A DNA stretch of 64,000 nucleotides from Psychromonas sp. psych-6C06. Lineage in GTDB: Bacteria; Pseudomonadota; Gammaproteobacteria; Enterobacterales; Psychromonadaceae. Made by a program: the position numbers and the translations under genes. Position 1 is the first letter of the stretch; each line of letters opens with the position of its first letter. Where the stretch lies: positions 62,001 through 126,000 of the forward strand of contig NZ_PIZM01000009.1 in the NCBI RefSeq assembly GCF_002835465.1, given 5' to 3'. Positions 23,691-25,588 of this stretch are shown one piece after another. The notes beneath the pieces are model-generated. The model made no database searches. It saw only the letters and a list, made by a program, of their open reading frames with translations, and was not told the DNA's origin.

Positions 23691-24662
23691 TTAGTTTAAA
23701 TGTTGATCAACCTCTATTGCTAGTGCGACAGTTGCACCTACCATAGGGTTATTTCCCATGCCGATAAAGCCCATCATAGCTACATGTGCAGGTACAGAAG
23801 AGCTACCTGCAAATTGCGCATCGGCATGCATGCGACCCATTGTGTCTGTCATACCATAAGAAGCGGGGCCTGCTGCTACGTTATCTGGGTGTAACGTACG
23901 GCCTGTACCACCGCCGGATGCAACTGAAAAGTATGCTTTGCCTTCGCGGTGACACTCGGCTTTATAAATGCCGGCCACAGGATGTTGAAAACGTGTGGGA
24001 TTGGTTGAGTTACCGGTAATGCTGACATCGACTTTTTCACGTTGCATAATCGCGACACCTTCTCGGACATCATCTGCGCCATAACATAATATTTCTCCAC
24101 GAAGTCCTTTTGAAAAACGGCGTCTTTCGACCTCATGTAGCTCTCCCGTTTCGTAATCGAATTGCGTTCTTACGTAAGTAAAACCATTAATGCGTGAAAT
24201 GAGGTAAGCTGCATCTTTACCTAAACCATTTAAAATTACTTTGAGTGGCGTTTGACGAGATTTATTGACGTTAAGTGCAATTTTGATTGCGCCTTCAGCT
24301 GCCGCGAATGATTCGTGTCCGGCAAGAAATGCAAAACATTGGCTTTTTTCATTGAGTAAACGTGCAGCGAGTGCACCGTGTCCAAGACCAACTTGACGTG
24401 CATATGCAACGCTACCCGGTTTAGTAAAAGCTTGTAACCCTTCGCCAATTATATTGGCTGCTTCTTCGGCATTATGTGCATTTCGGAATAATGCTAATGC
24501 AGTGCCTAATGTGTAAGCTTCTCCGGCGTTTTCGAAAGCAATCGTTTGTGTTTCGTTCACCAGCGCTTTTGAGTCGATGCCATTTTGTAAACAATATTGG
24601 TAAGCGGCTTCTAAGGTATCAAGGTTCATTTCATTTAATACTGATTGGATTGAGTTATTCAT
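23691..24662 (-). CDS. GGGtGRT family protein
   Basis: A 323-aa protein of the GGGtGRT family, named from the motif seen here as ASGGGTGRTLHPDN. Conserved runs GLGHGALAARLLNEKSQCFAFLAGHESFAAAEGAIK and AHVAMMGFIGMGNNPMVGA are present in pieces across its length. There is no signal peptide or membrane segment, so it is cytoplasmic. The biochemical role is not established; the family is regularly encoded beside a NifU/IscU-like protein, as here, 16 bases upstream. I chose the ATG at 24662 because AGAGGA precedes it and it clears the upstream gene. The operon is under a fluoride riboswitch. Confidence 0.92.
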   Translation of the reverse strand: MNNSIQSVLNEMNLDTLEAAYQYCLQNGIDSKALVNETQTIAFENAGEAYTLGTALALFRNAHNAEEAANIIGEGLQAFTKPGSVAYARQVGLGHGALAARLLNEKSQCFAFLAGHESFAAAEGAIKIALNVNKSRQTPLKVILNGLGKDAAYLISRINGFTYVRTQFDYETGELHEVERRRFSKGLRGEILCYGADDVREGVAIMQREKVDVSITGNSTNPTRFQHPVAGIYKAECHREGKAYFSVASGGGTGRTLHPDNVAAGPASYGMTDTMGRMHADAQFAGSSSVPAHVAMMGFIGMGNNPMVGATVALAIEVDQHLN

Positions 24663-24678: not shown

Positions 24679-25371
24679 TTACGCTTCACGTGGGTTAACG
24701 ATATGTTCTGCTTCTTCATAACGACCATAAGTGCCTGTGGCTTCTTTTAGGGCGATATCAGCGGCGATGCCTTGATTGATGCTCTTCATCATTTTGCCAA
24801 GATTGACATATTGATAACCAATGACTTCACGATGATCATCTAGCGCAAGCTGAGTGACATAACCTTCTGCAATCTCTAAGTAACGCACACCTTTAGCACT
24901 GGTGGAATAACTGGTGCCTACTTGGCTTCGTTGTGTTTGCCCAAGATCATCCATTGCAGCGCCCACTTCTAATCCCCCTTCTGAAAAAGCAGATTGTGTA
25001 CGGCCGTAAGCAAATTGCAGAAATAATTCACGCATCGCGACATTAATCGCATCACAAACTAAATCAGTATTCATCGCTTCTAAAATTGTTTTACCGGTGA
25101 GGATTTCAGCCGCCATTGCTGCTGATTGTGTCATGCCAGAGCAACCAATGGTTTCGATAAGCGCTTCTTCGATGATGCCCTGTTTTACATTAAGAGTGAG
25201 TTTAGCCGCGCCTTGCTGAGGTGCACAGGTACCAACGCCATGGCTTAAACCAGAGATAGCGATGACATCTTTTGGATTGATCATGCTTCCTTCGATAGGA
25301 ATAGGTGAAGAGGGATGTAAATCGCCACGTTGAATAGGGCACATTGAGTTGATTGCTGAAGAGTATTGCAT
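24679..25371 (-). CDS. NifU/IscU-like iron-sulfur scaffold protein
   Basis: A 230-aa protein related to the N-terminal scaffold domain of NifU/IscU. Key features are LSHGVGTCAPQQGAAKL, ALIETIGCSGMTQSAAMAAEILTGKTILEA and CDAINVAMRELFLQFAYGRTQSAFSE. Candidate ligand cysteines lie in TCAP, GCSGM and VCDAI, but the canonical third IscU cysteine near the C-terminus is not seen, so true Fe-S scaffold activity is uncertain. It is the first gene behind the fluoride riboswitch, and its ribosome-binding site can fold into a hairpin. Its partner GGGtGRT gene follows in the same operon. Confidence 0.88.
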   Translation of the reverse strand: MQYSSAINSMCPIQRGDLHPSSPIPIEGSMINPKDVIAISGLSHGVGTCAPQQGAAKLTLNVKQGIIEEALIETIGCSGMTQSAAMAAEILTGKTILEAMNTDLVCDAINVAMRELFLQFAYGRTQSAFSEGGLEVGAAMDDLGQTQRSQVGTSYSTSAKGVRYLEIAEGYVTQLALDDHREVIGYQYVNLGKMMKSINQGIAADIALKEATGTYGRYEEAEHIVNPREA

Positions 25372-25377
25372 GGTGTC

Positions 25378-25481
25378 TTCCTTCTATATTAAGGAAAACA
25401 GGTTTTCTGGCGTAATATTTCCTACAGAACGCGATGATGCTAATAATGCATCAGTGAACAGAGATACCTGTCTTCAATTCT
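25378..25481 (-). promoter_or_regulatory. Expression platform of the fluoride riboswitch
   Basis: Read on the minus strand, three pairings are possible. The aptamer's 3' end CCTACAGAA can pair with TTCTGTAGG (bases 25478-25486 with 25421-25429). ACAGGT can pair with ACCTGT (25466-25471 with 25398-25403). TTCCTT can pair with AAGGAA (25391-25396 with 25378-25383), which hides the ribosome-binding site of the scaffold gene eight bases before its ATG. This nested set fits control of translation by fluoride. Confidence 0.65.
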
Positions 25482-25534
25482 GTAGGAGTCATCAGCCGTA
25501 GATTGGCGGTTAAATCGGTGGAACCCCATCACCG
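25482..25534 (-). ncRNA. Fluoride riboswitch (crcB RNA motif)
   Basis: Read on the minus strand, the RNA begins with the hairpin CGGUG-AUGGGGUUC-CACCG, continues AUUUAACCGCC and ends GGCUGAUGACUCCUAC. These three blocks match the fluoride aptamer: the P1 hairpin with AUGGnGUUC, the AACCGCC/GGC stem, and the 3' CUGAUGnCUCCUAC strand that forms the pseudoknot with the GGGG loop. Fluoride binding through Mg ions is established for the motif. It starts six bases after a good promoter and controls the scaffold/GGGtGRT operon 110 bases downstream. Confidence 0.93.
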
Positions 25535-25541
25535 TGAATAC

Positions 25542-25571
25542 ATCATAGTCCTCAAATAGGGTGATAATCAA
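25542..25571 (-). promoter_or_regulatory. Promoter of the fluoride-riboswitch operon
   Basis: On the minus strand, TTGATT (25566-25571) and TATGAT (25542-25547) are 18 bases apart. Transcription would start near 25536, right at the aptamer. Confidence 0.65.
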
Positions 25572-25588
25572 ACACTTTATTAGAGTAA

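Follow-up and report, generated by a model that had tools for sequence, protein, structure and literature searches.

A fluoride riboswitch was found on the minus strand ahead of two genes, encoding a NifU-like protein and a GGGtGRT protein, in the window, by which the whole stretch of 64,000 nucleotides analyzed here is meant. The operon is quite probably fluoride responsive, with products that form an accessory, non-exporter module of the fluoride response and act by the conjectural steps described below. Very probably, the pair serves the fluoride response as an accessory module related to iron, and its place in that response is well supported on comparative-genomic grounds.

The aptamer (positions 25476 to 25542, minus strand) was matched by the Rfam model RF01734 in cmscan with 55.7 bits against a gathering score of 34 and an E value of 1e-12. 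The match covered the full length of the model (positions 1 to 64; 25542 to 25476 in the window), with no non-standard pair marked. The initial annotation had read a minus-strand crcB aptamer at 25482 to 25534 and had proposed a covariance-model search; that segment proved to be the core of the match. This was the sole Rfam match at gathering scores within the 64-kb window and the sole RF01734 match found across the 3.72-Mb genome. A chance hit was rejected because the score lies 21.7 bits above the gathering score and the linkage recurs elsewhere. The aptamer is 5' to the first gene, on the same strand, with 104 bases between it and the ATG at 25371. It had also been placed directly after a promoter, and a consensus scan did find a sigma-70-like match, TTGATT-18-TATGAT (25542 to 25571, minus strand), that ends where the aptamer match begins. 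The promoter match is weak when taken alone, with 2 promoter-type matches in the 361-base stretch against 1.3 expected from shuffles. Upstream of the aptamer, a AAAGTGTGA..AGATCT-like motif recurs in the relatives L140 to L142, L153, L155, L163, L165, and L019, and a weaker form is present in the window at 25559 to 25578 (minus strand). The motif resembles a CRP-type half site, and the aptamer-led operon may on that resemblance also answer to a CRP-family regulator.

The leader was examined for an expression platform, and five minus-strand segments were defined. Segment A, the 3' tail of the aptamer (TCCTACAGAAT, 25477 to 25487), has segment B, the anti-aptamer (GTTCTGTAGGA, 25420 to 25430), as its best downstream complement; the A:B helix surpassed those of all 200 shuffled leaders, a predicted structural coupling of the aptamer tail to the expression platform. 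Segment C (GAAGACAGGT, 25466 to 25475) lies directly 3' of the aptamer and can pair, by the helix search, with segment D (ACCTGTTTTCCTT, 25391 to 25403) once A:B is open. The other partner of D in the fold is segment E (AAGGAAGACA, 25374 to 25383), the ribosome-binding region just 5' of the ATG. Both pairings of D were kept through sequence changes in many lineages in the helix search. In the unliganded fold of the window leader, computed as secondary structure without the aptamer pseudoknot or ligand energy, A:B had a pair probability of 0.992 over its 10-bp core, D:E one of 0.97, and C:D one of 0.0. With the aptamer tail held, A:B fell to approximately 0 and D:E to 0.565, C:D rose to 0.452, and the mean accessibility of the ribosome site increased from 0.02 to 0.29. 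C:D is excluded while A:B is formed because C sits inside A:B.

The same features were followed in a set of 32 leaders, which excludes the L164 leader and in which many Vibrio-type members are near-identical. The A:B helix reached a shuffle p of ≤0.05 in 26 of the 32 (exceptions L019, L150, L156, L157, L162, and L166), with shuffles that resample neighboring-base steps and keep dinucleotides only approximately. When leaders were swapped among ten distinct tails, the mean score was 18.7 with a tail's own partner versus 12.8 with the swapped leaders, but in just 4 of the 10 did the own partner score highest in its row, a result due in part to the similarity of several tails. With the aptamer tail held, ribosome-site accessibility went up in 25/32 leaders, by at least 0.1 in 15 and by less in ten more; it was unchanged in four and dropped slightly in three. 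A search of the leader for a terminator-like hairpin found none, so a transcription terminator was set aside as the platform and a translational switch was preferred. With the exclusive helices and the accessibility gains also considered, the leader looks, on this folding model, like a translational ON switch. When fluoride is absent, the aptamer tail would pair with the anti-aptamer and D would cover the ribosome-binding region, leaving translation off. Mg-bound fluoride would stabilize the aptamer, allowing A:B to open, C to capture D, and both proteins to be made.

The assignment of the two genes to an Fe-S-scaffold-like protein and a GGGtGRT protein was upheld. The first gene (24679 to 25371, minus strand) encodes a 230-residue NifU_N/IscU-fold protein that passes PF01592 narrowly, at 24.9 bits against a cut-off of 22. 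In its structure model, the IscU fold, shared with the N-terminal scaffold family PF01592, extends over approximately the first 100 residues (Foldseek match to an IscU chain, E value of 5.1e-5), and a profile match to IscU chains in the PDB was obtained as well. Three cysteines, C49, C77, and C106, are each conserved in 99% of 90 aligned sequences. The cluster ligands of IscU are Cys37, Asp39, Cys63, His105, and Cys106. C77 is firmly aligned to the central cysteine of IscU; the first cysteine is out of register, and the C-terminal ligand positions fall outside the alignment, so that the other ligand positions found no match in it. Unlike IscU/NifU scaffolds, the protein carries an extra C-terminal domain and stays far below the NCBIfam equivalog cut-offs (iscU, 24.3 of 192.4 bits; NifU_clost, 30.2 of 187.9 bits). 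The model also gave weak matches to lipoate-protein ligase chains (3r07_C, E value of 0.011), perhaps through the C-terminal part.

The second gene (23691 to 24662, minus strand) encodes the GGGtGRT protein, with 323 residues and a PF14057 score of 555.8 bits against a cut-off of 27. Its cysteines C24, C109, and C193 are present in 97 to 100% of 90 sequences. Position 80 is Cys in 90% of the 90 sequences and Thr (T80) in the window protein and several gammaproteobacterial proteins. The structure model has a mean pLDDT of 82.5, and its second half consists of alternating strands and helices. No Foldseek match fell below an E value of 0.001, the weak matches including dinucleotide-binding enzymes among others; one PDB profile match was obtained at an E value of 1.2, and the Pfam search added no second family that was informative. 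Naming the protein by fold or distant sequence was rejected for want of a confident relative.

Neither product had been taken for a known exporter, and this reading held. Both proteins lack the family match and the membrane segments that characterize CrcB/Fluc and CLC exporters: no Pfam exporter family was matched by either, and hydrophobic 19-residue windows scoring ≥1.6 were absent from both (controls: CrcB, 18; CLC, 47). A hidden exporter in the pair was rejected on these two grounds. Elsewhere in the genome, one CrcB and two CLC matches were found on other contigs, and the stretches fetched around these three genes contained no fluoride riboswitch at the gathering score. CrcB was present in 28 of the 29 genomes carrying the riboswitch-pair arrangement, the exception being G732, where none was found; hence, export does not depend on the pair. 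The gene order in G732 is riboswitch, NifU-like, GGGtGRT, CLC. In two same-genus genomes with no GGGtGRT hits (G162 and G408), the riboswitch sits on a CLC gene; Aliivibrio sifiae has one on the pair and another on a CLC gene.

The initial annotation had suggested looking for the same riboswitch before this gene pair in other genomes, and the arrangement was recovered repeatedly. PF14057 was above its cut-off in 10 of 398 genomes drawn from the phylum, and RF01734 lay upstream in eight of the nine besides the window genome; in the exception, L006, a degraded riboswitch was sought and none was found. Within the order, PF14057 was above cut-off in 56 of 394 genomes. The riboswitch lay upstream on the same strand at 28 of 55 full-length GGGtGRT loci and was lacking at the other 27, in counts that leave out GGGtGRT fragments in G403 and a subthreshold hit in G078. 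The G078 hit was discounted as a weak PF14057 match (E value of 2.9e-4) in a reading frame that looks like threonine synthase. G403, a same-genus genome, holds just two short GGGtGRT fragments (L016 and L017), like a decaying copy. Addition of G163, a proteobacterium from another class, brought the count to 29 of 56 loci, with the riboswitch 787 to 961 bases before the GGGtGRT domain. Distribution followed family: the riboswitch was present at every locus in f5 (18/18), f88 (6/6), f7 (2/2), f94 (1/1), and the window's own f1 (1/1) and at none in f89 (0/20), f9 (0/6), and f99 (0/1). The linkage spans six families. The genomes G584 and G509 belong to Shewanella gelidimarina and Motilimonas pumila, respectively.

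The pair was the commonest riboswitch target found in the sampled order. RF01734 gave 60 matches above cut-off in the 394 genomes, in scans whose stricter filters, also used for the G163 pair linkage, can lose weak matches; 28 lay before the pair and 32 before other genes. The first gene after these 32 encoded CrcB in 17 cases, CLC in 6, a DHH/DHHA2 protein of the pyrophosphatase type in 4, a Na+/H+ exchanger in 3, and a universal stress protein in 2, the last two both followed by an enolase-like frame. At L194, the first long frame 3' of the aptamer is not the gene, and the second frame, CrcB, was scored. Every other riboswitch target thus belonged to a type with a known link to fluoride. These data bear on an alternative with a real chance of being correct, if somewhat short of an even one, which takes the pair for an ordinary enzyme, anaerobic or iron-dependent, that fluoride inhibits and of which the switch just makes more, with no by-pass or repair; it overlaps the fluoride-response part of the preferred reading. 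The same logic, a switch restoring a fluoride-inhibited enzyme, is described for enolase and suggested for phosphatases in the accessible text of a 2024 review (PMC11139923), whereas the prominence of the pair among riboswitch targets argues the other way, though 18 of the 28 cases come from one genus and so are not 28 independent events.

A NifU-like frame lay within 0.5 kb upstream of GGGtGRT on the same strand in 80/80 named relatives, the best 80 of at least 584, two of the frames being short. Model R1, built from 21 aptamers, was run against each of the 80 loci and found a riboswitch beside the pair in six of these best 80 of at least 584. All six are Gammaproteobacteria: Vibrio fluminensis, Aliivibrio sifiae, two Shewanella, Photobacterium aquae, and Motilimonas pumila. 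A whole-genome RF01734 search of 38 of these best 80 of at least 584 returned the same six beside the pair. R1 found none in the remaining 74 of the best 80 of at least 584, four of which hold <250 bases upstream of the NifU-like gene; these are mainly gut anaerobes and include two gammaproteobacterial metagenome-assembled genomes (Succinivibrio and Aeromonadales). Since most relatives examined have no switch, the pair may originally have served something other than fluoride, and the prevalence of such anaerobes among these best 80 of at least 584 also favors an ordinary enzyme that fluoride inhibits. A recurrent neighbor was sought among the best 80 of at least 584, and the commonest family appeared in just 4 loci, with none naming a reaction, although the same comparison first drew attention to enolase and crcB near the pair. 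One gut Bacteroidales locus (L061, 5235 to 5327, minus strand) contains stop-broken crcB-like fragments near the pair, as if crcB had been lost and the pair kept.

A tree of 119 GGGtGRT sequences required three changes of riboswitch state under parsimony. One clade of 24 members held 17 of the 18 riboswitch-marked sequences, and L005 (from G163) stood apart, so a single event largely accounts for the gammaproteobacterial cases. In G163, RF01734 precedes both the pair and crcB, the two leaders being alike by eye; in its class, GGGtGRT occurred in 10 of 385 genomes, and R1 detected a switch at G163 only. Riboswitch control was thus attached to the pair, or kept with it, at least twice, with the crcB-linked clusters of Bacteroidota as a further link. 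The small number of state changes is what might be expected if the linkage were a hitch-hiking relic with no functional meaning. Such a relic can hardly be credited, as the leaders have diverged yet have mostly kept their pairing partners, and the link is seen again in G163 and, by way of crcB, in Bacteroidota.

Of 140 genomes from the Bacteroidota family to which the Draconibacterium genome G441 belongs, 45 carried GGGtGRT. Loci were fetched for 37 of them, the other eight being partial genes or at contig ends, and at least 1,500 bases upstream were present in 33 of the 37. Upstream of the pair on the same strand were crcB (25/37 loci) and DUF190 (26/37), and downstream were a putative redox protein, C_GCAxxG_C_C (22/37), and enolase (13/37), with the neighbor family names Pfam-checked on L268 and L251 only. 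All 37 loci were searched with R1, and RF01734 was found directly before crcB in seven, the positives being the only loci rechecked with Rfam. In five of the 25 crcB-bearing loci, crcB lay >1.8 kb from the pair; in L268, the sole one of the five listed gene by gene, an opposite-strand frame intervenes, so a shared transcript with the pair is not required there. L276, L277, and L280 have extra short GGGtGRT fragments near the full gene, suggesting repeated partial duplication. The retention of the pair near crcB and DUF190 in this family argues against an ordinary fluoride-inhibited enzyme. The suggestion in the initial annotation of an uncharacterised fluoride-tolerance module is well supported as regards a fluoride response, tolerance itself being putative, by these comparisons, namely, the six-family linkage, the Bacteroidota association with crcB, DUF190, and often enolase, and the CLC gene of G732.

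The enolase neighborhood suggests, with low confidence, lower glycolysis as the field in which the pair acts. A special case of the preferred reading would have the pair replace or by-pass enolase under fluoride as an Fe-S-type dehydratase, taking phosphoglycerate to PEP or pyruvate. Besides the 13 Bacteroidota loci with enolase downstream, enolase is near the pair in a Clostridium locus (L054, opposite strand) and an Akkermansia locus (L074), and, within the order, some riboswitch-led pyrophosphatase and Usp genes are followed by enolase-like frames. Against this, neither sequence nor fold matched any dehydratase, and in 13/13 enolase-bearing Bacteroidota loci a gap of 0.9 to 1.9 kb, occupied by the C_GCAxxG_C_C gene, separates the pair from enolase. 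Because enolase is present in the same loci, it is not simply replaced by the pair, and the special case is unlikely. The C_GCAxxG_C_C neighbor, together with CrcB neighbors that could export released fluoride, would also fit a module whose substrate is not environmental fluoride but organofluorine compounds or the fluoride set free from these. With no dehalogenase family match in the pair and with neighbors typical of general fluoride stress, that assignment is very improbable.

Published expression data connect the pair to iron. Expression of BT0173-74 was down 11- to 12.8-fold in iron-depleted Bacteroides thetaiotaomicron, and the accessible text reports these genes as iron-responsive only (PMC10434189). 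In early-phase Clostridium pasteurianum, GGGtGRT was 7.1-fold higher with iron, according to the accessible text (PMC5395762). This iron dependence leads us to infer an iron-dependent two-protein system; it also suits an ordinary iron-dependent enzyme inhibited by fluoride. The initial annotation had offered as its other reading that fluoride damages or blocks a metal or Fe-S process that the pair protects. An Fe-S or metal role is only indirectly supported, by the IscU-type fold and the iron-dependent expression published for two anaerobes, and a protective role is putative.

The preferred reading, an accessory module of the fluoride response, may be carried further in a conditional way. The IscU-fold protein and its partner, with a Rossmann-like part, might act jointly as an iron-dependent enzyme or repair system and might sustain or by-pass a central metabolic or metal-dependent step blocked by fluoride, the leading candidate being enolase; ion export would be left to the separate CrcB, which in the window genome has no riboswitch. 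Stated in full, and only tentatively, the pair could be a previously unassigned arm of bacterial fluoride tolerance that works apart from export. As a two-protein, iron-dependent enzyme, it would let lower glycolysis or a metal-dependent step continue during the block of enolase by fluoride, and fluoride control would have been attached to it more than once, by riboswitch in Proteobacteria and via crcB-linked clusters in Bacteroidota. Fluoride control in marine bacteria would give GGGtGRT, which is highly conserved and occurs in many gut and environmental anaerobes, a first physiological handle and a simple inducer for its study. A non-exporter, iron-related component would also be added to fluoride biology, in which the riboswitch targets named in the accessible literature are mainly exporters, antiporters, and fluoride-inhibited enzymes.

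Known fluoride systems provide the comparison. The accessible text of the 2010 paper on the crcB motif mentions mutS as well as genes for K+ or Cl- transport and for formate hydrogen lyase (PMC2864571). That of the 2024 review lists genes for exporters, Na+/H+ antiporters, pyrophosphatase, HAD-type proteins, enolase, and formate hydrogen lyase and uses neither the word iron nor the term Fe-S (PMC11139923). No description of a fluoride switch linked to a NifU-like/GGGtGRT pair was found in the accessible parts of the literature searched, a listing in Baker et al. (2012) being possible. The gene pair is the same as that of other members of the PF14057 family, such as BT0173-74 of B. thetaiotaomicron; unlike the window, the gut relatives examined among the best 80 of at least 584 show no riboswitch. 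According to the accessible text, the fluoride operon of Enterobacter cloacae FRM is ppaC-uspA-eno-gpmA-crcB-orf5249 (PMC5533749). It is similar in placing riboswitch-controlled accessory genes beside an exporter, and pyrophosphatase-type, usp, and eno frames like its own also follow riboswitches in the window's order; it differs in that no NifU-like or GGGtGRT gene is among its six named genes, orf5249 itself being unnamed (PMC5533749). With RF01734 riboswitches elsewhere, the window shares aptamer sequence and structure, 5' leader position, and strand. It departs from them in a leader that looks translational, with no terminator-like hairpin, and in its target, which is normally an exporter, pyrophosphatase, enolase, or antiporter and here is the NifU-like/GGGtGRT pair. 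The riboswitch is a further member of the known RF01734 class, and the module that it regulates appears, from comparison of genomes, to be a new variant of fluoride defense whose link to fluoride is well supported.
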